Assembly: GCF_014174395.1 (NCBI RefSeq)
Contig: NZ_JABEQD010000003.1
Location: forward strand, 372,001 to 436,000
Reading direction: 5' to 3'
DNA length: 64,000 nt
DNA from: Gluconacetobacter aggeris
Lineage (GTDB): Bacteria; Pseudomonadota; Alphaproteobacteria; Acetobacterales; Acetobacteraceae
A model generated the notes under the pieces. It did no database searches, was not told the origin of the DNA, and saw only the letters and a list, made by a program, of their open reading frames with translations. Shown here piece after piece: positions 4,004-46,744 of the stretch. Positions within the stretch are counted from its first letter, which is position 1, and each line of letters opens with the position of its first letter. The translations under genes and the position numbers were made by a program.

Positions 4004-4014
4004 TCAGGAGGCCG
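3985..4014 (-). terminator. Rho-independent terminator overlapping the stop codon of the NtaA-type gene
   Basis: On the minus strand CGGCCTCC (4014-4007), loop TGAAGG and GGAGGCCG (4000-3993) form a perfect 8-bp GC-rich stem followed by GCTTTTCC. The TGA stop codon of the monooxygenase (4006-4004) is inside the loop. Stem plus T-run is typical of an intrinsic terminator and separates this gene from the downstream TonB receptor. Confidence 0.7.
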
Positions 4015-5413
4015 CGACCTGAAGATCGCCGGACGCCGGGACGGTAGAGAACCCGGTTCCCGCGTCGTTCGACGCACGCACCGCCTCCGGCTCTTTGGCC
4101 GACCACCGATTTTCGGGAACCGGCAGGCCCAGATGGCCCCGAAGCGTATCCTGTTCGTAGTCCGTCTTGAAAAGACCACGCTGCTGAAGGATCGGAATCA
4201 CGCGTTCGCGGAACAATGCGAAATCGTGCGGAGCCGAGACACGGACATTGAATCCATCGGCGGCGCCATCGCGGAACCAGCGCTCGATCTCGTCCGCCAC
4301 CGTCTCCGCCGAGCCCACGAAGGAAAGACGCCAGGTCCCATAGCGCTCGGCAGCTTCTCGCAGCGTGAGTGCGTTCGCCTTGACGCCACGCAGGATACGT
4401 TCGGCATGTCCTTTGTAACTGTTGAGCGTCAGGCCGCTGACGTCGGGGAACGGCGCATCGAGCGGATACTGGCGGAAATCGTGATAATTGAACGCACGAC
4501 CAAGTGCGACCAGCTTCTGTTCTATCGTGATGTCCCCGGTGCGCTCCCGTGCGATGGCCTGTGCTTCCTCATCGGTATCCGCGATAATCGGTGCGATGCC
4601 CGGCAGGACGGTGATCAGGTCCGGATCGCGACCGGCAGCGCGTGCCCGGCGCTTCAGGTCCTGATAATAATCGCGGGCACCATCGAAATCCTCGACGCCG
4701 GCGAAGGTGGCATCCGCGATCTCCGCACCGAGCTGCCGCCCGTCATTGCTGTCACCGGCCTGGAAGATCACCGGATAACCCTGTTTCGAACGGCTCAGGG
4801 CCAGCGGGCCGGCGACAGACAGGAACGCACCCTGATGGTTCAAGGCATGCTGCTTGGATTTGTCGAGGAAAATGCCCTTCTCTTTGTCATAGGGAAAGGC
4901 ATCGGCCTCGTAGCTGTCCCACAACCCCTTGACCACCTCGACGAACTCCTTCGCCCGGCGATAGCGGACGGCGTGATCCAGGTGCTTGTCGTGCCCGTAG
5001 TTCCGGGCAGCGCCTTCAAGCCCCGTGGTCACCACGTTCCAGCCCGCCCGGCCACGGCTGATATGATCGAGCGAGCCGAACAGCCGCGCGACATTGTAAG
5101 GCTCCCAATAGGTGGTGGTCAGCGTGCCAACCAGGCCGATCTTCGACGTCGAGACCGCCAGCGCCGAAAGAAGCGTCAGCGGTTCCAGACGGTTGAGGAA
5201 ATGCGGCGCCGTATCCGGCGTGATGAATGGGCTGTCGACGATAAAGACGAGGTCGAACTTCGCCTCCTCCGCCAATCGGGCATTCCGGATATACCAATCG
5301 ATATCGATGCTGGCATTGGACGGTAGATCGGGAAGGCGCCATGAGGAGAAATCGGTCCCCACGCCAGCCAGAATGGCACCGAGCTTGAGGGTACGCGGCT
5401 TGGAGTGGCTCAT
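4004..5413 (-). CDS. NtaA/SnaA/DszA-type FMN-dependent monooxygenase
   Basis: A 469-aa luciferase-like (LLM) flavin monooxygenase of the NtaA/SnaA/DszA/SoxA family, which uses FMNH2 and O2 to cleave C-S or C-N bonds. The TIM-barrel hallmarks are visible: LKLGAILAGVG at the N-terminus, FIVDSPF, HFLNRLEPLTLLSALA, VGTLTTTYWEPYNVARLF and RGRAGWNVVT. Length fits the family (about 440-480 aa). I chose ATG 5413 because GAGG lies nine bases upstream; an ATG at 5422 is an alternative. The gene is divergent from the flavoprotein/ferredoxin/SBP operon at 5663. Two paralogues lie at 17155 and 19505. Substrate unknown; a sulfone, sulfonate or thioether is inferred from the locus. Confidence 0.9.
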   Translation of the reverse strand: MSHSKPRTLKLGAILAGVGTDFSSWRLPDLPSNASIDIDWYIRNARLAEEAKFDLVFIVDSPFITPDTAPHFLNRLEPLTLLSALAVSTSKIGLVGTLTTTYWEPYNVARLFGSLDHISRGRAGWNVVTTGLEGAARNYGHDKHLDHAVRYRRAKEFVEVVKGLWDSYEADAFPYDKEKGIFLDKSKQHALNHQGAFLSVAGPLALSRSKQGYPVIFQAGDSNDGRQLGAEIADATFAGVEDFDGARDYYQDLKRRARAAGRDPDLITVLPGIAPIIADTDEEAQAIARERTGDITIEQKLVALGRAFNYHDFRQYPLDAPFPDVSGLTLNSYKGHAERILRGVKANALTLREAAERYGTWRLSFVGSAETVADEIERWFRDGAADGFNVRVSAPHDFALFRERVIPILQQRGLFKTDYEQDTLRGHLGLPVPENRWSAKEPEAVRASNDAGTGFSTVPASGDLQVAAS

Positions 5414-5662
5414 GATGGTCATCCTCGAATGCTGTGACGGGTCCTCAGGCAACGATCTTGCGAACGCAGATCCCGCCACGGCCAGCGAGAAATATTCAAT
5501 CGATCCATGTGCAAGACAAAAGCATCGACGCATTCAGGAGTGCCAAACCGTCACACGATAAAAACTCATTTGCCTGACCACGGACGCTCGTACGATCTTC
5601 GTCCGCGCCCCGCACCCGCTTTTTCTTGGCTTCCACATCAGATTTTCAGGATATGGTACGAC
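5414..5662. promoter_or_regulatory. Divergent promoter region
   Basis: A 249-base divergent spacer between the minus-strand NtaA-type monooxygenase and the plus-strand flavoprotein operon. It must contain both promoters; I could not pick clear -35/-10 pairs by eye. Confidence 0.4.
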
Positions 5663-7255
5663 ATGAAGGAAATGGATGCAGATGTGCTGGTCGTCGGTGG
5701 CGGCATGGCCGCGGGATGGGCAGCCATCTCCGCCGCGAAGACCGGCGCTTCCGTGATCGTCGTGGACAAGGGTTTCATGGGAACGAGCGGCGTCACCGCT
5801 CCCGCCGGCCCGAACCACTGGTGGGTTCCTCCCGACCCCGCGCAGCGCGAGGCGGCCATCCGCCGCAGGCTGGAGACCGCCTTCGGTCTGGCGGATTCGA
5901 AATGGATGGAACGGATCATCGACATCACCTGGCGATCGATCCCGGAACTGGACCCTTACTACCCGTTTTCGGGTGACGGCAAGGGCGGCCTCTTCCGTTC
6001 CGGTCTGCGCGGGCCGGAATATGTGCGGGCATTGCGCCGGTACGCGACGGATCTGGGCGTGCACGTGCTCGATCATCATCCGGCGCTGGAACTTCTGGGA
6101 CGGCAGGACGGCTCGGTCGGCGGCGCGGCGGGATATGACCGGCTGGGCGGTGTTTCATGGCATGCCCGCGCCGGGGCAGTGGTCCTGGCGACCGGGGGGT
6201 GCGGCTTTCGTTCCGGCCTGATAGGCAGTTATTCCAATACCGGGGACGGCTATCTGATGGGCGTCGAGGCTGGCGCGGAACTATCGGGTATGGAATTCTG
6301 CATCTCCTATTCCATTTCCCCTGCCTGGCTCAGCACCCGGACGCTTCCCTATACCGGTGCGCGCTATTATGACGCAGCCGGTGCGGAGATCGATGTTCCC
6401 GCAGGTGTCAGCCGGATGCGCGAACATCTGCTCGTGCTCGCCGATGCATTCCGTGCCGGGCCGGTCTACGCGGATCTGCGGGAGGCGCCGAAGGCGCTCC
6501 CGGACGTAGTGCGCCAGATCCAGCCGGCGACAGTCGCGGCCTTCGAGCGCCGGGGACTGGACATGTTTCGTGACCGCTTCGAAGTAAAGCTGTTCGGCGA
6601 AGGCACCATCCGTGGCACCGGAGGCTTGCGGATCGTGGATACGGGCTGCGCAACGTCGGTGCGTGGACTTTTCGCTGCGGGAGATGCCGCAACGCGCGAG
6701 CATATCGCCGGCGCGACCAGCGGCGGCGGCGCACAGAATGCAGCCTGGGCGCTCTCGTCGGGCGTTCTGGCGGGCCAGGCCGCAGCCGCCCTCGCCCGCC
6801 ACGAAGGCAAACGCGCAGCGGACGAGGGACTGGCCCCCCTGGGCCAGGCGGGCCTGCGCCCCCTGGCCGGCATGCGCCCGGTCGACCAGAAAGCCCTTCA
6901 GCAAACCGCCGGAGAAGAGATCCTCGATCTCGACAAGGCCTTGCGCCGCCGTGCGACCGGACTGGAAGCCTCGGGCCGCCGGCTTGAGGGCGCGTGGCAG
7001 GAGGTGAGCGGCCATCTGGTCGGCAAAAGCCTCGACGCGGTTGCCGCACGCGAAACAGCGGCAATGGTCGCCACCGCCCGCTGGTGCAATGAAGCTGCCC
7101 TCGCTCGCACGGAAAGCCGAGGCATGCATGTGCGTGAGGATTTTCCGCACATCTCGCCACTCCAGGCCCATCGCCAGATGGTGGGCGGGCTCGATCGGGC
7201 TTGGATCAGGCCCGATGTCGCGCCCCAAAGGCAGACAAAAGGACACCCAGGATGA
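5663..7255 (+). CDS. FAD-dependent oxidoreductase (AprA / fumarate-reductase flavoprotein-like)
   Basis: A 530-aa flavoprotein of the succinate dehydrogenase/fumarate reductase/adenylylsulfate-reductase alpha family. The dinucleotide motif VVGGGMAAGWAA is at residues 10-21, followed by VVDKGFMG and, near the C-terminal part of the FAD domain, FAAGDAA plus GGGAQNAAWAL. It has no signal peptide, so it is cytoplasmic. ATG 5663 starts just before the conserved ADVLVVGGG strand; longer in-frame starts would add an unrelated leader. It is coupled by an ATGA overlap to a two-cluster ferredoxin, which in turn is coupled to an SBP. This mirrors the AprA/AprB arrangement, so electrons probably pass between FAD and the Fe-S partner. 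Chemistry and substrate are unknown; a sulfur-oxyanion or organosulfur redox step is inferred. A deleted relic of the same pair is at 45100-45512. Confidence 0.85.
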   Translation: MKEMDADVLVVGGGMAAGWAAISAAKTGASVIVVDKGFMGTSGVTAPAGPNHWWVPPDPAQREAAIRRRLETAFGLADSKWMERIIDITWRSIPELDPYYPFSGDGKGGLFRSGLRGPEYVRALRRYATDLGVHVLDHHPALELLGRQDGSVGGAAGYDRLGGVSWHARAGAVVLATGGCGFRSGLIGSYSNTGDGYLMGVEAGAELSGMEFCISYSISPAWLSTRTLPYTGARYYDAAGAEIDVPAGVSRMREHLLVLADAFRAGPVYADLREAPKALPDVVRQIQPATVAAFERRGLDMFRDRFEVKLFGEGTIRGTGGLRIVDTGCATSVRGLFAAGDAATREHIAGATSGGGAQNAAWALSSGVLAGQAAAALARHEGKRAADEGLAPLGQAGLRPLAGMRPVDQKALQQTAGEEILDLDKALRRRATGLEASGRRLEGAWQEVSGHLVGKSLDAVAARETAAMVATARWCNEAALARTESRGMHVREDFPHISPLQAHRQMVGGLDRAWIRPDVAPQRQTKGHPG

Positions 7256-7704
7256 TCGAAGACATTTTTCCGGAACGCTGCACCGGCTGCAATGATTGCG
7301 TCACCGTCTGTCCCGACCATGTGCTGGACCCCGGCGCGGCAGGCGCTCCTCCCGTCATCGCCCGTGTCGCGCAATGCCAGACCTGTTTCCTGTGCGAACT
7401 CTATTGCGCGCATGATGCCATCTACGTCGCGGTGGAGGGAGCAGGAACCGGAACGACGCTCCATCATCCCACGCCGCTGATCGGGCGTCTTCGCCATGAT
7501 TATGGTTGGGACGGCAGCACCGACGATCCATTACGTGCGTTCTGGCAACTCGGGCCGCTATTGCGGGAGGGACTGGAAATATCGGCCGCGCGCCATACCC
7601 GACGGCAGGCGACCGCGCTGAGCGAGGCAGCCACCGGGCAGGAAGGAGACGAAGCTCTCTCCTCCCGCGCTCTGGGGACCACGCCGAAAGACCCGGCGGC
7701 ATGA
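7252..7704 (+). CDS. 2x[4Fe-4S] ferredoxin-type subunit (AprB-like) with C-terminal extension
   Basis: A 150-aa small Fe-S protein. Cys10, 13, 16 and 20 (CTGCNDCVTVCP) and Cys42, 45, 48 and 52 form two CxxCxxCxxxC cluster sites, as in bacterial ferredoxins and AprB. A roughly 90-residue tail follows (LIGRLRHDYGWDG and a basic/alanine-rich end) that is not part of the ferredoxin fold. The start codon overlaps the stop of the flavoprotein gene (ATGA at 7252-7255) and its own stop overlaps the SBP start (7701-7704), so the three proteins are very likely made together. It should be the electron-transfer partner of the flavoprotein. The tail motif is conserved in the relic at 45.1 kb, so it is functionally meaningful. 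Confidence 0.87.
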   Translation: MIEDIFPERCTGCNDCVTVCPDHVLDPGAAGAPPVIARVAQCQTCFLCELYCAHDAIYVAVEGAGTGTTLHHPTPLIGRLRHDYGWDGSTDDPLRAFWQLGPLLREGLEISAARHTRRQATALSEAATGQEGDEALSSRALGTTPKDPAA

Positions 7705-8678
7705 TCCGCCTGCCTGGCCGCCGCACCATACTCGGCGCATCCATCGCAGCGCTGCTTCCTCTGCCCGCTGTCGCGGGAACGGATCAGGCCGGCGCCATTG
7801 ATGGCAATGGCACCATTACCCTGCTTGTCGGCGATCAGCGCGGAGCAACCCGTTCCATCCTCAAATCCGCAGGCCAGCTGGAGGGCCTGCCCTATCGGGT
7901 CCAATGGGCCTTTTTCCCGGTCGGCGCGCCGCTGGTTACGGCTATCGCCGCGGGTGCGCTCGATTTCGGTTATGTCGGCGACGCGACGGCCACATTCGCC
8001 TTCGCGGGAGAGCGCCCCCTCAGGGTCATCACGGTCTGGAAAATGGATGGGGCCAGCAGCGCGCTCGTCGTCCCCAGGGGAAGCACCGCACGGACGATGC
8101 GCGACCTCGTCGGCCGCCGCATCGCGTTCGTCAAGGGATCACCCGGACATCTGCTGGTGCTTGCGGCGCTGAAGCGTGAGGGGCTGACGCCCGACCAAAT
8201 CATCGCGACGCCGCTTTCTGCCGCTAACGCCCGGACCGCCCTGGCGAACGGCAGCATCGACGCATGGGCCATCTGGAACCCATTCATCGCCACGGTCGAA
8301 CGCGAAGACCAGGCCCGCATTCTCCTGACCGCTCACGGGCTTGTCGATGAAGTCGAATGCGGCGTGGCAAACCAGGGCGCGATCACAGGGAAGAGAGGCG
8401 AATTCCTCGATTTTCTGGCGCGCGTCAACAGGGCCCTCGCCTGGGGCAACACCCATCGGGAAGAACGGGCCCGCGGGTTCAGCCAGGATAGCGGTGTGCC
8501 CATCGAGGTCGCCCGGCTGACCTCATCGCGTCTGCATGTGATGCCGCTCAACCATGTGACCGACGAGGCGATCACGATACACCAGCGGGTCGCCAACCTC
8601 TATCAGTCAGCCGGCGTCATCCCTTCGCCGATCGACGTGGCCCGGTTCTACGACCGATCCTTCGTCATTCCTGCCTGA
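7701..8678 (+). CDS. Periplasmic sulfonate/nitrate/taurine-type substrate-binding protein
   Basis: A 325-aa type 2 periplasmic binding protein (SsuA/NrtA/TauA superfamily). Residues 1-25 form a signal peptide with a twin-arginine-like GRRTILG start and cleavage near AVA/GT. Family segments include LVGDQRGATRSIL, WAFFPVGAPLVTAIAAGALDFGYVGDA, a hinge-like DLVGRRIAFVKGS and SIDAWAIWNPF. The start overlaps the ferredoxin stop (ATGA). No permease or ATPase is adjacent, so it must share one of the two SsuBC-type transporters in the window or act otherwise. The ligand is inferred to be the substrate or product of the upstream flavoprotein/ferredoxin pair. Confidence 0.9.
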   Translation: MIRLPGRRTILGASIAALLPLPAVAGTDQAGAIDGNGTITLLVGDQRGATRSILKSAGQLEGLPYRVQWAFFPVGAPLVTAIAAGALDFGYVGDATATFAFAGERPLRVITVWKMDGASSALVVPRGSTARTMRDLVGRRIAFVKGSPGHLLVLAALKREGLTPDQIIATPLSAANARTALANGSIDAWAIWNPFIATVEREDQARILLTAHGLVDEVECGVANQGAITGKRGEFLDFLARVNRALAWGNTHREERARGFSQDSGVPIEVARLTSSRLHVMPLNHVTDEAITIHQRVANLYQSAGVIPSPIDVARFYDRSFVIPA

Positions 8679-11269: not shown

Positions 11270-12352
11270 ATGTCCGTCAACTTCATCGGTTATATCGGCT
11301 TCAACAACAATTCCGAGATCCATGGCGGCGTCCGCAAGCGAGTGCTCGATCGAACCTATGTCGTGGACGCCCTGCGCGCGCAGGAAGCGGGCGGGTTCGA
11401 CCGCGTGCTGATCCCGTTCGGGTCTAACTCGCCGGAAAGCCAGCTTGTCGCGGCTTATGGCGCGGCGTTGACGACGCGGCTCGGCTTCCTGGTCGCCCAC
11501 CGGCCAGGCTTTACACAGCCGACATTGGCCGCACGCCAGCTCGCTACCCTCGATCAGCTCTCCCAGGGGCGCGTCGCCGTACACATCATCACCGGTGGGG
11601 CGGATGAGGAAATGGCACGCGATGGCGATGTCGGCACCACCAAGGCCGAACGCTACGCACGATCCGACGAATACCTGACCATCCTGCGCCAAGAATGGTC
11701 CGCGCAAACACCCTTCGATCATGACGGAAAATTCTATCATATCCGCCAGGCCAGCAGCGCGATCCATCCCGAGAACCTGCCGGTCTTCTTCGGCGGCACC
11801 TCGGCCGAAGCCGTCGACGTCGCCGGCCGCCATGCCGACGTCTACGCGACCTGGGGCGAGACGCTGGATGCCACCCGTGAGATCGTGTCGCGCGTCCGTG
11901 CCTCGGCTGCCCGCCATGGCCGGCAGATCGGCTTTTCGCTGTCGTTGCGCCCGGTGATCGCGGATACGGAAGAGGCGGCCTGGAAACGTGCCGACGAGAT
12001 CGTTGAGCGCGTGCGCGCCAACCGCGAGGCCGCCGGCCTGCCGACCAGCGGCCACCGCCCGCCCAACGACGGATCGCGACGCCTGCTGGAAACCGCATCG
12101 TCCAACCGCCGTGACACCAGGCTGTGGACCGGCGTGGCCCAGTTGACGGGCGCTGCCGGCAACTCGACCGGCCTCGTGGGCACGCCGGAGCAGGTCGCTG
12201 ATGCCCTTCTGGAATATTACAAGATCGGCATCGGAAACTTCCTTATCCGTGGCTTCGATCCCCTGGCCGATGCCATCGCTTACGGCCGCGACCTGATTCC
12301 GCTGGTGCACGAGAAGGTGGCCGCACTGGACGAACTGGCCGCCGCAAGCTGA
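11270..12352 (+). CDS. SsuD-like FMNH2-dependent alkanesulfonate-type monooxygenase
   Basis: A 360-aa luciferase-like monooxygenase of the SsuD family, which converts alkanesulfonates to aldehyde plus sulfite with FMNH2 and O2. Visible family segments: NFIGYIGFNNNSE, GFDRVLIPFGSNSPES, LGFLVAHRPGF, PTLAARQLATLDQLSQGRVAVHIITGG, VFFGGTSAEAVDVAGRHADVYATWGE and LWTGVAQLTG/GNSTGLVG. A strong GAGGAG ribosome site precedes ATG 11270. It follows the TonB receptor closely, suggesting co-transcription. A decayed near-copy is at 41385-42066. Whether it prefers sulfonates or a related C-S compound cannot be read from the sequence. Confidence 0.92.
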   Translation: MSVNFIGYIGFNNNSEIHGGVRKRVLDRTYVVDALRAQEAGGFDRVLIPFGSNSPESQLVAAYGAALTTRLGFLVAHRPGFTQPTLAARQLATLDQLSQGRVAVHIITGGADEEMARDGDVGTTKAERYARSDEYLTILRQEWSAQTPFDHDGKFYHIRQASSAIHPENLPVFFGGTSAEAVDVAGRHADVYATWGETLDATREIVSRVRASAARHGRQIGFSLSLRPVIADTEEAAWKRADEIVERVRANREAAGLPTSGHRPPNDGSRRLLETASSNRRDTRLWTGVAQLTGAAGNSTGLVGTPEQVADALLEYYKIGIGNFLIRGFDPLADAIAYGRDLIPLVHEKVAALDELAAAS

Positions 12353-12450: not shown

Positions 12451-13296
12451 ATGAACGCGATTACCAAACCGGGAAGCTTCACGATAACGCCGCTGGAGCC
12501 CACCATCGGGGCCGAGATCAGTGGGCTCGACCTGCGCACGCCGATCACGGACGGGGTCCGGGACGACCTGAAGCAGGCGCTGCTGCGTCATAAGGTCCTG
12601 TTTTTCCGTGACCAGAACATCGACACGCATCAGCAAGCCGCGTTCGCGAACCGCTTCGGGCCGCTCTATACCCATCCCAGCACGCATCGCTCACCCGAAA
12701 TCCCTTCGGCACATGCGATTTCGGCCGCGGATTTCAAAGTCTACGCCGCCGATTACGACCAGCGGCGTCAGGGCTGGGACGCCTATCATACCGATACGAG
12801 CTGGCGCCTGGTGCCGACCTGGGGCGCGGTCCTGCGCGCGGTCAATTTGCCGGAACAGGGGGGCGACACGATCTGGGTCGACGGCGCACGCGCGCTTGAA
12901 ACATTGCCCGACGACACCCGGGCACGACTGGAAGGCCTTCACGTCACGCATGATTTCGGCAGTTCGCTGAAGCGGGCAGGCCATGAATATCCGATCGTGG
13001 CGCACCCCGTGATCCGCACCCATCGCGAGACGGGGCAGAAGATCCTGTGGGTGAATTTCTCCCTGCGCCCAACACTGATCGGTCTCGATATCGCGGAAAG
13101 CCGTGCGTTGCTGACCATCGTCAGCGACCAGTATCGCCGGCCGGAAAACCAGGTGCGCTTCTCATGGCGCCCCGGCTCGCTCGCCTTCTGGGACAATCGT
13201 GCCGCCGTCCATTACGCCGTGCGCGATTATGGCGATTTTCCGCGTCTGCTCGAACGGATCCTGATTGCGGACGAACCGCTCTACGCGGATCTCTGA
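12451..13296 (+). CDS. TauD/TfdA-family Fe(II)/2-oxoglutarate dioxygenase
   Basis: A 281-aa taurine/alkylsulfatase-type dioxygenase, likely cytoplasmic. It has the family N-terminus IGAEISGLDL, the first iron ligands in YHTDTSW (HxD), the distal His in AAVHYAVRDYG and the 2-oxoglutarate-binding Arg in LLERILIAD. Enzymes of this family hydroxylate taurine, alkylsulfates or sulfonates next to the heteroatom so that sulfite or sulfate is released. GAGAGGAG eight bases upstream supports ATG 12451. It lies 98 bases after the SsuD-like gene and probably belongs to the same transcript. Substrate unresolved (taurine, alkylsulfate or another sulfonate). Confidence 0.92.
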   Translation: MNAITKPGSFTITPLEPTIGAEISGLDLRTPITDGVRDDLKQALLRHKVLFFRDQNIDTHQQAAFANRFGPLYTHPSTHRSPEIPSAHAISAADFKVYAADYDQRRQGWDAYHTDTSWRLVPTWGAVLRAVNLPEQGGDTIWVDGARALETLPDDTRARLEGLHVTHDFGSSLKRAGHEYPIVAHPVIRTHRETGQKILWVNFSLRPTLIGLDIAESRALLTIVSDQYRRPENQVRFSWRPGSLAFWDNRAAVHYAVRDYGDFPRLLERILIADEPLYADL

Positions 13297-41384: not shown

Positions 41385-42066
41385 TTATGCGGCGGCGGCG
41401 TTCGCCCGCGCCTTCAAGGCGGCAACGCGTTCGCGTACCAGCGGGATCAGTTCGCGCCCGTAGCGTTCGGCATCGTCCAGCGGCTTGAAGCCCAGGATCA
41501 GGAAATTCTCAACCCCCCGAGCATGATAATCCAGCAGCGCGTCGGCCACCTGCTCGGGTGTGCCCACCAGTCCGGTCGAATTGCCGGCAGCCTCGGTCAG
41601 TTGCGCGACGCCCGTCCACAGGCACTTGTCACGCCGCAGGCCGGTTGCCGTTTCCAGCAGGCGGCGCGATCCGTCATTGGGCGGGGTGTGGCCACTGGTC
41701 GGCAGGCCCGCTGGCTCGCGGTTCGCGCGTACCTGCTCCACGATGTCCGCCGCGCGCTTCCACGCGGCGTCGTCAGTGTCCACGATCGCCAGCGACAGGG
41801 AAAACCCGACCGACCTCTTTTGGCGCGCGGCCGACGCCCGGACGCGCGCCACACCCGCGCGCGTCGCATCCAGGGTTTTGCCCCAGGTGGCATAGACATC
41901 GGCATGCCGGAGAATTCGACCCGAACGGGATCAGCACTCGATCGAAGCCTCCATCCTCCTGCACCTACAGCGCTGCCCGCACGTAATCGCCATCCAGCGA
42001 CCGACTGCCTATGCCGGCATGCAGTTCCGAACTTTTGTTGAAGCCGATATAGCCGACAAAATTCAC
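41385..42066 (-). pseudogene. Decayed SsuD-like monooxygenase gene (internal stop plus internal deletion)
   Basis: Reading from GTG 42066 the N-terminus VNFVGYIGFNKSSELHAGIG parallels the intact SsuD-like protein at 11270. A TAG at 41967-41965 interrupts it after VRAAL; reading on, QEDGGFDRVLIPFGSNSP matches the intact copy, then near 41905 the sequence jumps, with a frame change, to RHADVYATWGKTLDATRAG, skipping about 130 residues including the whole HRPGF...HIITGG region. The last 155 residues (41852-41385; FSLSLAIVDTDDAAWKRAADI, GNSTGLVGTPEQVADALLD) are preserved. No functional enzyme can be made. Confidence 0.88.
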
Positions 42067-42513
42067 AGGCGCGCACGCTCTCTTTCCACGAACATGATGA
42101 GACGCGGAATGTCGGCCGTCATGGCCGTGCCTGTCACACGAGTAAGGATCAAGTCTCGATCCACAGCCCATCACTTGTCACCGGTCCGAACGCCACATGT
42201 GCTCGGGCATAGGGGTGCCGGCGACATACCGATGTGGGTTGGTTTTTTTCTCGCGCCCGAAAATTACAACGACGATAAAAATAATTTCGGTATAGATATT
42301 AACCTAATATCGAATCCGAAACAGACTGCGGTCAGAAACGCGCATATTATTTGATTAAAATTCAAAATGTCTGAGTTATGTTATGTAAAACTGTGGCAAT
42401 TATACATCAATGTTTTACATTTACATTTATATTCACCTTTTCTTATTTTGCGTCAGGCTAATTTAACGCAATCATTCGTTCACTACTCAATAGAATTCTC
42501 GGAAGATCTTCAT
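42067..42513. promoter_or_regulatory. 447-base AT-rich leader of TonB receptor
   Basis: No gene recognised. The stretch from 42240 to 42513 is markedly AT-rich compared with the flanks and should contain the receptor promoter and a long leader. GGAAG at 42501-42505 is the ribosome site for ATG 42514. Confidence 0.45.
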
Positions 42514-45030
42514 ATGCTGAGGAAAAACTATCTCCTGGCTATTACAATCCTGACAAGCTCTGTCGGGTATGCGAATGCCGCCACGCCCCAGACGGACAGA
42601 ACGCATTCTTCGCGCAAAACCACTCCTGCCACGCCGGTGACGCATGTGGACGCCAAAGCCTCCCCAACTGCCGTGATAGAACCAGTGACCCCAGCGACAT
42701 CACGCCGCGACGCATCCAATGACGCAGCCGAGGCAGTGATCGTCACCGGTACCCATGCCTTCAATCGCAAGGCACGGGATAGTTCTGCGCCTATTTCTGT
42801 TATTTCAAATGCTCAGATACAGCGTTCCGGGCAGCTCAATCTGGCGGACGCCATCGCCCGAATCGACCCATCCATTACGCTGGGTGCCATGGGGAATGAC
42901 GTTGGAGCATTGACGTCATCCATCCGCATGCGTGGCCTGAACCCCAATGAGGTTCTGGTGCTCGTCAACGGCAAGCGTCGCAATACGACGGCAAACATCT
43001 ATGCCGATGGCGGGCCGCAGCAAGGCTCGACCCCGGTCGACGTGAATATGATCCCCGCCGGAGCGATTGACCATATCGAGGTCCTGCGTGACGGCGCAGC
43101 GGCCTTATACGGTTCGGACGCAATCGCCGGCGTGATCAACATCATTACCAAAAAGAGAGACCATGGCCTCAATGCAGTCACTCAGACCGGTGCGAACGCC
43201 TATAATGGCGATGGCTGGCAGTATCTGGTCGGCGCCGATGGCGGCCTGAAACTGGGCAATGACGGATTCTTGCATCTCAGCGGTCAAGTCTATCATACGG
43301 ATCATTTCGTATCAAAATCGACTGGCACGAATGATCATCGTTGGACACCGACTTCAACCTGGCCAGCCAACTCGAACCAGAGCCTAATGACGCCCGAGGA
43401 AACCCGCGAAAATCTCTCGATCGAATGGGGCAAGCCCATTACCGAGGGAATTGAGACCTATGGCCTGATCACCTATGCACACCGTCACTCGGAAGCATAT
43501 GAAAACTACCGCCTGCCTTCCATCGCCCCCAATGCCTATCCTTACGGCTTTTCACCGCTGGAGACGATCGAAGAAAACAATTTTCAGGCCAATATTGGGT
43601 TGAAGGGGGGCAATCTGCTCGGGTTCAACTGGGACCTCAGCACGCTATATGGCGAGGATGCCGACAAGATCGGGAACAAGAACACCTTCAACCCCAATTA
43701 CTACGCCGCTTATGGCTGGTCGCCGACGACCGTTCGGGCCGAAAGCTACAGCCTCGCGCAATGGACCAGTAATTTCGACCTGCGCCGCAATTTCAGCATC
43801 GGGCATGTCGTCCCGGTGACATTCGCGATGGGGGCCGAACACAGGCTGGAAATATACGACGTCAAGGCAGGCAATCCACCCTCCTATCTGCTGGGCGGTA
43901 CGGCCGGCTATGCGGGGTTGACCCCGCAAAACGCCGGCAACTGGCAGCGCAATGTCTGGGCCGGATATATCGACGGCGACTTCCATCCGCTGAAACACTG
44001 GGATCTCGATTTCGCCGGTCGCTTCGAACATTATACCGATGCAGGCGACACCGAGACCGGCAAGGTCACCACGCGCTATGACTTTACCCGTCGGATCGCG
44101 GTTCGCGGCACGATCAGCAACGGTTTCCGTGCCCCCACGCTGCCGGAAGAACATTTCAGTGCGCTCAACGTCTCGCCGACCGGTGCGTCCGGCCTGCTCT
44201 CCACGACCAGCGCCGCGGGCCGCTCCATCGGGGCGCAGCCGCTCAAGCCCGAACGGTCGACCAGCATCGAGGGCGGCATCATCGTCGAACCTGTCGACGG
44301 CTTCCATGTCTCGGTCGATGCCTACCAGATCAATATCCGCGACCGTATCGTGGGCGCGGCCAGTATCAACGGCCTGGCCGCCTATGACGCGATCGCGCTG
44401 ACCGGCGTGACCGTGCCGAGCGGGCCGGGGGTCGAACTCAATGGCATCTCCGCGAACTATTTCGCCAACGCGGCCAGCACGCGCACGCAGGGCGTGGATA
44501 TCTCCGCAGATTACGATTTCAGGCTGCATCAATACGGCAATCTGAACCTCTCCCTGCAACTGAACCTGAACCGTACGCGTATTCACCATGTCAATACGAA
44601 TGCTTACGGCAATTCGCTGGTCAACGCCCAGACTCTCGCCTATCTGACGACGGAATCCCCCCGCAGCAAGATCGTGCTGGACGCGTACTGGACGTATCAT
44701 GACTGGGGCGTGAACATTCGCCAGACCCGCTACGGGCAGACCTCAGGAATGCTGTCCTATTCGGATCTGGCCCCGTCCTCCATCCGTTATTCGACGACGA
44801 CGTTCGCCCCGTTCACGAATACCCCAGCCTGGCTGACGGATATCGAGATCGGCTATCGGATCAATGCGCACTGGCACCTCGCTGTCGGAGCCAATAATAT
44901 CTTCAACGTACGCCCGCGTCGCGTGAACCCAATCAATAACTATCTCGGTCCCAGGATGTATGACGTCAACTCGTCCGGCATTCCAATCACTGGTGGCTAT
45001 TATTATGGCCGCGTAAACGTCAGCTTCTGA
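42514..45030 (+). CDS. TonB-dependent outer-membrane receptor
   Basis: An 838-aa receptor, close in plug sequence to that at 973. Signal peptide residues 1-22 (LLAITILTSSVGYANA); Thr/Pro-rich linker; TonB-box-like EAVIVTGTH at 73-81; plug with SIRMRGLNPNEVLVLVNGKRR, GSTPVDVNMIPAGAIDHIEVLRDGAAA and YGSDAIAGVINIITKK; barrel ending YYYGRVNVSF with terminal Phe. I chose ATG 42514 because of the GGAAG site and the signal peptide; the upstream in-frame extension is AT-rich and not signal-like. It is flanked by two decayed genes and is separated from them by terminator-like hairpins, so it is a stand-alone unit. Ligand unknown. Confidence 0.92.
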   Translation: MLRKNYLLAITILTSSVGYANAATPQTDRTHSSRKTTPATPVTHVDAKASPTAVIEPVTPATSRRDASNDAAEAVIVTGTHAFNRKARDSSAPISVISNAQIQRSGQLNLADAIARIDPSITLGAMGNDVGALTSSIRMRGLNPNEVLVLVNGKRRNTTANIYADGGPQQGSTPVDVNMIPAGAIDHIEVLRDGAAALYGSDAIAGVINIITKKRDHGLNAVTQTGANAYNGDGWQYLVGADGGLKLGNDGFLHLSGQVYHTDHFVSKSTGTNDHRWTPTSTWPANSNQSLMTPEETRENLSIEWGKPITEGIETYGLITYAHRHSEAYENYRLPSIAPNAYPYGFSPLETIEENNFQANIGLKGGNLLGFNWDLSTLYGEDADKIGNKNTFNPNYYAAYGWSPTTVRAESYSLAQWTSNFDLRRNFSIGHVVPVTFAMGAEHRLEIYDVKAGNPPSYLLGGTAGYAGLTPQNAGNWQRNVWAGYIDGDFHPLKHWDLDFAGRFEHYTDAGDTETGKVTTRYDFTRRIAVRGTISNGFRAPTLPEEHFSALNVSPTGASGLLSTTSAAGRSIGAQPLKPERSTSIEGGIIVEPVDGFHVSVDAYQINIRDRIVGAASINGLAAYDAIALTGVTVPSGPGVELNGISANYFANAASTRTQGVDISADYDFRLHQYGNLNLSLQLNLNRTRIHHVNTNAYGNSLVNAQTLAYLTTESPRSKIVLDAYWTYHDWGVNIRQTRYGQTSGMLSYSDLAPSSIRYSTTTFAPFTNTPAWLTDIEIGYRINAHWHLAVGANNIFNVRPRRVNPINNYLGPRMYDVNSSGIPITGGYYYGRVNVSF

Positions 45031-45034
45031 CAGC

Positions 45035-45068
45035 AGCACCCCCACTTCGTACATGCGGTGGGGACGCT
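45035..45068 (+). terminator. Terminator-like hairpin after the TonB receptor
   Basis: Five bases past the receptor stop, CCCCAC (45040-45045) pairs with GTGGGG (45058-45063), with outer AGC (45035-45037) / GCT (45066-45068) across a mismatch, followed by CATTCTTCCC. Position between the receptor stop and the convergent relic supports a terminator; the T-tract is weak. Confidence 0.5.
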
Positions 45069-45099
45069 CATTCTTCCCGTCGCACGAGGATCGTTGTAA

Positions 45100-45512
45100 T
45101 CAAGGCGTGTCCGGAGCCTCGGCTTGGCGGGCACCGCGCGCGGACGATATCTCCACCCCCTCCCTGAACAGCGGCCCAAGCTGCCAGGAGACGCGCAGGG
45201 GATCGTCCGTGCCGCCGTCCCAACCATAATCATGGCGCAGACGCCCGATCAACGCGCCCGGATGGCGCAGGGCTGTCCCGTCCAGCCGGCGCGCCGCCGC
45301 CTCCAGCCGGTCCGCACGGCGCCACGGGGCCCGATCCAGGTCCAGGATTTCCTCCCGCGTCACCCGCGTCGCCGCCCAGACGATCATATCCCGCCGTGCC
45401 GCCGATCGAACCGTCCGGCCGCGCCTGAAGCTCCAGCACCGGATGATGGTCGCGCACACGCACGCCCAGAGCTGCCACCGACGATCAGCACATCGGCCTC
45501 TATTTCTATCAT
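45100..45512 (-). pseudogene. Deletion-fused relic of the flavoprotein/ferredoxin pair
   Basis: Four pieces of the 5663-7704 gene pair survive in order but in changing frames. From ATG 45512: the flavoprotein start IEADVLIVGG; then LGVRVRDHHPVLEL and GSIGGTAGYDRLGG (compare LGVHVLDHHPALEL and GSVGGAAGYDRLGG); then EEILDLDRAPWRRADRLEA; then the ferredoxin tail ALIGRLRHDYGWDGGTDDPL and WQLGPLFREGVEISSAR. All FAD-domain bulk and all eight cluster cysteines are gone. About 2 kb has collapsed to 0.4 kb. It lies downstream of an ssuA-type gene on the same strand, so this locus once also joined an SBP to the pair. Confidence 0.88.
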
Positions 45513-45790
45513 GAGCCTGTTCGCTTTCACTTTTCCCGACCGAGACCACCAGAACGGCGCGAACGCCCGGCGACGGATTGCAATTGCCGATCATGAAAGC
45601 AGGCCAGGCCAGGCGCATGTCTGAATCATGCCTGCCGTCCTGAGTAAGCGGGAGTGCGCACCCACGCGCCGTGGCATAGCGCCCCGGCCATCTAATCACC
45701 GGCCTCCCCGCGCCAGGCTCTCACCCCGACACTACTGGATGCGGTCCATGACGTCGCATCTCACGACGATCATTTTCCACTGCTCGACAG
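45513..45790. other. 278-base gap between relic and ssuA
   Basis: No gene recognised. It separates the ssuA stop from the relic start on the minus strand and may contain more decayed sequence. Confidence 0.35.
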
Positions 45791-46744
45791 TCAGGGCGAC
45801 AGGACGGCCTTGCGGACATCCACCGCCACGGGCAGCAATCCTGCCTTATGGAACGTGTCGGCGATAAACTGTTGGCGGGCCATCGTGTCGGGTCCGACCG
45901 GCTGGATCCCATAAGTGACCTTCGCCACCGATCTGGCCACGACCGCCGGGTCCAGCCCCGTGGTGCCGGCAAGTATCCGCGCGACTTCCGGCTTGTTCGC
46001 CTGCGCCCAGGCATCGCATCGTGCCAAGGCATCGCGAATCACGTTCAGCAGCGCCCCCTGCCCTTCGACGAAGGCCCGTCGCGCCAGGAAGAACTCGGTG
46101 CCGCCGCCGACATCGGCCCCAGTCATCAGTACCCGCACGTCCCGCCCTGCAGCCGACAGGAACGGATCCCAGATCGACCAGGCATCCACCACACCCGTTT
46201 CGAACGCAGGCCGCGCCGCAGCGGGCAGCAGATAGCTTACAGAGACATCGCGCAGCGACAATCCATTCTTCAGCAACGCCGCCAGAAGCAACCAATGCGC
46301 ATCCGAACCACGTGTCACGGCGATCTTGCGGCCTCGCAGATCGCCAACCGCCCGTATTGGACTACCGCTGGGAACGATGATGGCTTCGCTGGACCCCACC
46401 TGCGGTTCATGCCCGACATAGACCAGGGCATCTGGCGTACTGGCCTGGGCGAAGACCGGCGGCAGGTCGCCGGTCTGACCGAAATCGAGCGCGCCTGATG
46501 CCATCGCCTGCAACATCGGCGGCCCCGCCGGGAATTGCGCCCACTGCACGGCAATGCCCTCCGGCGCCAGGGCTGCCTCCAGGATCCCCTTCTGCTTCAA
46601 AAGGATCAAGGAGCCGTATTTCTGATAGCCGATGCGGACAATGCTATCGGCGCCATACGTGACACGCGACGAGAAAGACAACACCAGCCCCGCGAGCCCC
46701 AGCGAGAGCGCCGAACGTCTGGACGGGATCATCTGCCGAGCCAT
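45791..46744 (-). CDS. ssuA: Aliphatic sulfonate substrate-binding protein SsuA
   Basis: A 317-aa SBP and the closest in the window to classical SsuA: mature start VRIGYQKYGSLILLKQKGILE, then WAQFPAGPPMLQAMASGALDFGQTGDLPPVFAQ, VGHEP, DLRGRKIAVTRGSDAHWLL and TGVVDAWSIWDPFLSAA. Signal peptide about residues 1-31 (SRRSALSLGLAGLVLSF, cleavage near TYGA/DS). It begins nine bases after the cysE stop, so it is probably co-transcribed with groESL-cysE. No ABC partners adjacent; it would have to use the SsuCB or the second ABC system. Confidence 0.9.
   Translation of the reverse strand: MARQMIPSRRSALSLGLAGLVLSFSSRVTYGADSIVRIGYQKYGSLILLKQKGILEAALAPEGIAVQWAQFPAGPPMLQAMASGALDFGQTGDLPPVFAQASTPDALVYVGHEPQVGSSEAIIVPSGSPIRAVGDLRGRKIAVTRGSDAHWLLLAALLKNGLSLRDVSVSYLLPAAARPAFETGVVDAWSIWDPFLSAAGRDVRVLMTGADVGGGTEFFLARRAFVEGQGALLNVIRDALARCDAWAQANKPEVARILAGTTGLDPAVVARSVAKVTYGIQPVGPDTMARQQFIADTFHKAGLLPVAVDVRKAVLSP

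Follow-up and report, generated by a model that had tools for sequence, protein, structure and literature searches.

A flavoprotein-ferredoxin pair of Gluconacetobacter aggeris and other bacteria, often beside putative organosulfur importers: a candidate oxidoreductase of sulfur scavenging

The conserved pair and its distribution

A 64,000-nucleotide stretch of the Gluconacetobacter aggeris genome (contig NZ_JABEQD010000003.1, positions 372,001 to 436,000; referred to below as the window) carries, on its plus strand, overlapping genes for an FAD flavoprotein (5663..7255, 530 amino acids), a 2x[4Fe-4S] ferredoxin subunit (7252..7704, 150 amino acids), and an SsuA-family substrate-binding protein (SBP; 7701..8678, 325 amino acids). 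The conserved unit is the flavoprotein-ferredoxin pair and not the trio, the SBP being a common but optional neighbor. From sequence and gene order, we propose, at a probability of about 45%, that the pair is a soluble two-subunit oxidoreductase that scavenges sulfur from imported organic sulfonates or similar compounds.

The two junctions of the run are ATGA overlaps, at 7252-7255 between the flavoprotein and ferredoxin genes and at 7701-7704 between the ferredoxin and SBP genes, in agreement with the original prediction. The flavoprotein combines FAD_binding_2 with the fumarate-reductase C-terminal domain Succ_DH_flav_C (PF00890, 55.9 bits against a gathering score of 20.4; PF02910, 33.9 against 20.8) and belongs to a clade of its own within the FAD_binding_2 / SdhA-FrdA superfamily. 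The ferredoxin has two CX2CX2CX3C motifs (C10, C13, C16, and C20; C42, C45, C48, and C52), and the eight cluster cysteines, as originally counted, are invariant in 15 of 15 aligned members. Its tail had been taken for a novelty; however, the GxxR..GW motif is family-wide, with G85-W86 present in 15/15 ferredoxins and G78 and R81 conserved in at least 90% of them; variation is confined to the distal end of the tail. Novelty of the tail in the window copy is thus ruled out by the conservation of the motif across the ferredoxin alignment. The SBP scores narrowly above the SsuA_fam (TIGR01728) cut-off (166.3 versus 163.5 bits), and its N terminus appears by eye to be export-type and twin-arginine-like, which fits the exported SsuA-like protein that had been predicted.

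At least 388 loci of the flavoprotein were confirmed; the best 80, i.e., those nearest to the window protein, are called the named loci here. They span Pseudomonadota, Cyanobacteriota, Bacillota, and Actinomycetota, with carriers among the Alpha-, Beta-, and Gammaproteobacteria, Cyanobacteria, Paenibacillus, and Actinomycetota. The ferredoxin gene directly follows the flavoprotein gene in 76 of the 80, and 60 of these 76 junctions are -4 overlaps. Four loci depart from this arrangement: in L087 (Gluconacetobacter tumulicola), the flavoprotein gene lies in two frames with the ferredoxin gene after it; in L111 and L120, the ferredoxin gene occupies another part of the locus; and L115 lacks one. 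An SBP gene lies within 400 nt downstream on the same strand in 21/76 loci, including those of Acetobacter sicerae and A. musti. No SBP accompanies the pair of Gluconacetobacter tumulisoli, the nearest relative among the best 80 (flavoprotein 87% identical). Because the SBP is directly downstream in just 21/76 loci, a fixed three-gene unit is ruled out, and the G. tumulisoli locus likewise speaks against one. The co-occurrence of the three families in other genomes, suggested earlier as a check, therefore holds for the pair (76/80) but not for the adjoining SBP; the trio had been called a recurring unit, and what recurs is the pair.

The pair is a patchy accessory unit. It occurs in at least 11 of the 398 phylum genomes searched, G. 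aggeris included; in at least 2 of 385 genomes of the class, again with G. aggeris; and in at least 2 of 394 genomes in a family search aimed at Rhodobacter, both of them already found. Three candidates were scored per genome in these searches, so the tallies are lower bounds. Plasmid-borne copies also occur, with 65 matching plasmid records. In L217, the order is reversed, SBP, two permease, and ATPase genes being followed by the ferredoxin and then the flavoprotein gene (7.5-9.5 kb). Seven loci of Bradyrhizobium and Paenibacillus (L105, L106, L116, L121, L137, L144, and L145), and also L209, contain two pairs within a few kb, which suggests two substrate specificities or a heteromer.

Neighboring importers and sulfur enzymes

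Neighbors within about 8 kb were found by tblastn with reference proteins taken from pair loci (mostly plasmid) and from the window. The same set was applied to 36 control stretches, each 17.5 kb long and randomly chosen from the contigs that bear the nine family loci (loci in genomes of the window's family). The loci of G013 and G039 are not in the family set, and four control stretches of G051, which has a distant homologue only, were excluded from the 36. An SBP gene was nearby in 60/80 named and 7/9 family loci and in 2/36 controls; the corresponding counts were 49/80, 6/9, and 2/36 for FMN-dependent monooxygenases of the LLM family, 22/80, 3/9, and 0/36 for SfnB-like proteins, and 17/80, 1/9, and 0/36 for TauD. 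At least two of these four were found in 51/80 named loci, 7/9 family loci, and none of the 36 controls, in support of the predicted link to organosulfur compounds. The ABC-transporter ATPase gene is hardly informative alone (46/80, 6/9, and 13/36).

Further enzymes are enriched near the pair. Peroxiredoxin-type genes (18/80 versus 0/36), rhodanese (11/80 versus 0/36), class II aldolase (21/80 versus 1/36), and 2-hydroxyacid dehydrogenase (20/80 versus 2/36) were recovered, together with O-acetylhomoserine (OAH) sulfhydrylase-type genes (7/80 versus 0/36; Fisher 0.10, not significant alone). Counts not significant at 0.05 were obtained for nitroreductase-type (8/80 versus 0/36), LysR (11/80 versus 3/36), and glutathione-transferase-like genes (named by eye, 6/80 versus 0/36) and for the cupin, CysE, and amidohydrolase references (2, 2, and 1 of 80). 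Family names were checked for the peroxiredoxin, aldolase, dehydrogenase, rhodanese, nitroreductase, and OAH sulfhydrylase references. A gene of the peroxiredoxin/AhpC-TSA family directly adjoins the pair in nine loci (L088, L092, L101, L102, L103, L107, L110, L113, and L214). In seven others (L104, L105, L106, L116, L123, L137, and L209), 2-hydroxyacid dehydrogenase and class II aldolase genes follow the pair on the same strand, possibly as a carbon-processing extension.

A sample blind to neighborhood was provided by ten of the 11 carriers among the 398 genomes, G. aggeris being set aside. The ferredoxin is present in 10/10, the SBP, permease, and ATPase in 9/10 each, LLM and SfnB in 2/10 each, and TauD in 1/10. 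No LLM, SfnB, or TauD was recognized within about 8 kb in 7/10 (L214 being a shorter, 12-kb stretch), and six of these seven carry genes for SBP, permease, and ATPase. The most constant partner in this sample is the importer, not a monooxygenase; in the named set, LLM genes are nearly as common as SBP genes (49 versus 60). An importer without recognized LLM, SfnB, or TauD was seen in 11/80 named loci, seven of them from Paenibacillus. Across 90 loci, the 80 named plus the ten blind carriers, sets that may overlap, the co-directional run around the pair contains a transport gene in 54 and an oxygenase-type gene (LLM, TauD, or SfnB) in 33. Of 14 plasmid regions opened, 2 were without annotation; in 6 of the 12 annotated loci viewed, SBP, permease, and ATPase genes directly adjoin the pair. 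The Paracoccus aminophilus plasmid pAMI6 carries a row of pair, SBP, two permeases, and ATPase, an importer without recognized LLM, SfnB, or TauD.

These counts bear on whether the pair merely supplies electrons to oxygenases encoded in its clusters, the LLM monooxygenases or others. The frequency of LLM genes in the named set is in keeping with such a role, as is Sphingobium yanoikuyae, where the LLM and flavoprotein genes overlap; still, the lack of any recognized oxygenase-type gene within about 8 kb in most blind carriers, and the nature of the superfamily, which is not one of flavin reductases, make it improbable. That the importer is the most constant partner in the blind sample is our main reason to regard the imported compound as a substrate of the pair itself.

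The SBPs are mostly of one kind, as 47 of 48 (47 from co-directional runs and the window protein) match SsuA_fam at E 1e-30 or better; the distant SBP of L068 was excluded from their alignment. In L216, the SBP is a TauA equivalog (428 versus 304 bits), and the gene order is SBP, ATPase, permease, flavoprotein, and ferredoxin. SsuA_fam and NMT1 are broad families, and of nine neighboring SBPs scanned singly, six fall under the SsuA_fam cut-off and not over that of TauA. The imported substrate could then be another anion or a heterocycle, with SBPs that are merely SsuA-like and an indirect link to sulfur. The independent sulfur genes nearby, SfnB, TauD, and rhodanese, along with OAH sulfhydrylase, serine acetyltransferase, and sulfatase genes, speak against this explanation, which we regard as quite improbable.

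Relationship to known flavoproteins

Among NCBIfam models, the flavoprotein is closest to TfrA (111 bits, cut-off 718), and in each of the 25 families listed its score lies far under the cut-off. Succinate dehydrogenase/fumarate reductase (SDH/FRD) ranked first in a PDB profile search, followed by the 3'-phosphoadenosine 5'-phosphosulfate (PAPS) reductase of Methanothermococcus thermolithotrophicus and NadB; AprA came below these. Profile-profile alignment gave E 8.7e-49 (21% identity, nearly full length) to an SDH/TfrA set and E 1.2e-15 (20% identity, full length) to AprA, values that are only roughly comparable because the sets differ in diversity. A midpoint-rooted tree of 40 rows, calculated with long-branch warnings, sampled 21 of the 80 named rows in addition to the window copy and nine AprA rows (L198, an AprA without a usable frame, L206, and L207 were excluded). 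In it, the pair's flavoproteins form a single 100/100 clade on a long stem, outside the AprA clade; AprA joins the uncharacterized NF006131 family, a join flagged as a possible long-branch effect. The proteins of L032 and L034 belong to this NF006131 / PRK08275 family, and L032 scores 275.8 bits on NF005331, an adenosine 5'-phosphosulfate (APS) reductase model with a cut-off of 557.

The pair's flavoprotein shares its FAD_binding_2 and Succ_DH_flav_C make-up with SdhA, FrdA, TfrA, and NadB, but it differs from them at conserved positions. R297, H364, and R409 (row-1 numbering), invariant in six SDH/TfrA-type rows and taken by us to be the substrate-site Arg and His, are not kept in the pair's family. 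Instead, R317 and R345, as well as E or D at position 313, are found in 75/75 rows of an alignment that includes the window (L073, L087, and L123, outside 500 to 570 amino acids, and L144, L145, and L146 were excluded). By profile alignment alone, R317 and R345 fall in the segments that hold the substrate-binding His and Arg of SDH/FRD, and we infer that they may line the substrate site.

The flavoprotein had been described as AprA-like, and the module does share with AprAB a two-subunit architecture and an alpha subunit that is homologous over its full length. The likeness nevertheless stays at superfamily level: the flavoprotein scores 43.3 bits on NF005331, is about 100 residues shorter than AprA, and was not reported at E 0.001 in a TIGR02061 (aprA) search of the G. 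aggeris genome, in which no AprA above the cut-off was found. The conserved AprA segments GRVWYAPW, RFKDGYGPVGA, TCLRNH, and SEPY..GSH, presumably the APS site, have no like residues aligned in the pair's family. Membership in AprAB is ruled out by the family models, the tree, and the profile alignment, and AprAB-type chemistry is unlikely for the pair.

Another parallel in architecture is the M. thermolithotrophicus PAPS reductase, which is likewise composed of an FAD alpha subunit and a small 2[4Fe-4S] beta subunit (PMC10322725) and which is matched by both subunits of the pair (8a8o_A, E 2.7e-5; 8a8o_C, E 4e-4). The sequence similarity is weak, however, and the ferredoxin Trp proposed there for electron transfer (Trp42, in CWDC; PMC10322725) is not kept in the pair's ferredoxins, where its position is occupied by Gln in 13/15, Glu in 1, and His in 1. 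Such architecture would allow an enzyme of the AprAB or PAPS-reductase kind, with APS, PAPS, or sulfite as its substrate. The separate clade, the missing AprA segments, and the replaced Trp all point the other way, and the G. aggeris genome has two PF01507 stretches, CysH/CysD-type by position, so a substitute for (P)APS reductase is not obviously needed; we consider this function very improbable.

Proposed function

We propose that the flavoprotein and ferredoxin would form one complex of the FAD_binding_2 (SdhA/FrdA/NadB) superfamily that receives its substrate, an organic sulfonate or similar compound, through an SsuABC/TauABC-type importer. The FAD would exchange two electrons with this anionic substrate, probably held by the family-invariant R317 and R345, and the two [4Fe-4S] clusters would pass electrons to or from the cellular ferredoxin pool. 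As in ssu and tau operons, SsuA/TauA-type importer genes stand in one row with the pair; unlike in those operons, part of the pair operons have the pair as sole recognized enzyme and no SsuD or TauD oxygenase. In rows whose sole recognized members are the importer and the pair, the pair may occupy the place of SsuD or TauD. SsuD (FMNH2 dependent, as is MsuD) and TauD (2-oxoglutarate dependent) are oxygenases that need O2. A bolder reading, which we put forward tentatively and with the odds against it, is that the pair could be a third system releasing sulfonate sulfur, an O2-independent flavoprotein-ferredoxin enzyme, encoded alongside an SsuABC/TauABC-type importer of its own, that would free the sulfur of imported sulfonates or prepare it.

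With regard to direction, we lean slightly toward reduction, for two reasons: no quinone, cytochrome, or NAD module common to the operons is seen, and OAH sulfhydrylase, a user of sulfide or thiol, stands beside some of them. The strongest rival is dehydrogenation: an FrdA/NadB-type dehydrogenase would oxidize a carbon or amine position before another enzyme desulfonates the product, and the ferredoxin would remove the electrons. Its closest relatives by profile (SDH, FRD, TfrA, and NadB), the operon with the TauA equivalog, and the aldolase and 2-hydroxyacid dehydrogenase genes, which fit a carbon-processing route, all favor this possibility; the loss of the three SDH/TfrA-invariant residues and the absence of an obvious electron sink from the operons detract from it, and on balance it seems rather unlikely.

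Several points weigh against a sulfur-scavenging oxidoreductase. Reductive cleavage of an unactivated alkyl C-S bond by a flavin is difficult. The sulfonate specificity of the SBPs is putative and not proven because SsuA_fam is a broad subfamily. None of SBP, LLM, SfnB, and TauD is found within about 8 kb in 9/80 named and 2/9 family loci, the co-directional run has no recognized transporter or oxygenase-type gene in 26/90 loci, and in the window itself no permease or ATPase gene lies beside the trio. Lastly, a row with only the pair means one with no further recognized enzyme, as judged with a limited set of reference proteins.

Other genes of the window and an eroded second copy

The window region is an island of sulfur-scavenging genes, which encode three monooxygenases of NtaA/DmoA type, one SsuD-like and one TauD-like enzyme, and SBPs of the SsuA family. 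The divergent neighbor of the flavoprotein gene encodes an NtaA/DmoA-family FMN-dependent monooxygenase (4004..5416, minus strand; 490.4 bits, cut-off 279.7), and the plus strand carries genes for an SsuD-like luciferase-family monooxygenase (11270..12352; 219.9 bits, under the SsuD cut-off of 518.2) and a TauD/TfdA-family dioxygenase (12451..13296; 220.2 bits, under the taurine dioxygenase cut-off of 313). Also present are a serine acetyltransferase gene and a gene of the acyl-CoA-dehydrogenase type that only resembles SfnB. At 41597-42174 on the minus strand, an open reading frame with VNFVGYIGFNKSSELHAGI resembles the start of 11270-12352 and by eye is an eroded SsuD-like copy.

A relic had been reported at about 45 kb, and it is real and eroded: a few short collinear flavoprotein pieces and a ferredoxin tail lie at 45000..45581 on the minus strand (clearest at 45126-45513), with DNA that is 68-89% identical, in pieces, to relatives. 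The best match, 74-89%, is to the pair of G. tumulicola (L050) and continues past the ferredoxin gene into the 3' flank, and a TonB-receptor-like gene is convergent both with the relic (42367-45030, by eye) and with a G. tumulicola pair (L087). Given this extended match and the shared convergent gene, the relic most likely represents the remains of a second flavoprotein-ferredoxin copy. It adjoins an SsuA-family SBP gene (45791..46744, minus strand), as had been noted; that gene is upstream of the relic, whereas the intact SBP gene is downstream of the pair, and therefore the relic does not repeat the order of the trio. In G. tumulicola (L050, 7826-9943, and also L087), the flavoprotein gene is split over two frames beside an intact ferredoxin gene, through gene decay or sequencing error.

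Implications for sulfur assimilation

No paper naming the flavoprotein-ferredoxin pair was found in the open-access literature searched, one lead aside, which accords with the claim of an undescribed module. The lead comes from the isethionate locus of Rhodobacter capsulatus SB1003, where the FAD-dependent oxidoreductase gene rcc02232 is clustered with ntaA, ssuCAB, and tauABC (PMC11423573). For rcc02232, an Ise/Sul transcript ratio of 3987.9 is reported, and its mutant still grew anaerobically on isethionate (PMC11423573). The product of rcc02232, in the stretch rcc02232-rcc02233, may be a member of the pair's family. A scan for NifH-type P-loops near the pair, modeled on the R. capsulatus layout, gave two matches, in L120 and L139, both resembling an Mrp-type ATPase by eye.

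Soil sulfur is mostly organic (PMC4267179). The occurrence of the pair beside organosulfur importers in many unrelated bacteria suggests an uncharacterized route to nutrient sulfur. Widespread, partly plasmid borne, and accompanied by SsuA/TauA-type importers, this uncharacterized pair is a candidate for a further route of sulfur assimilation.

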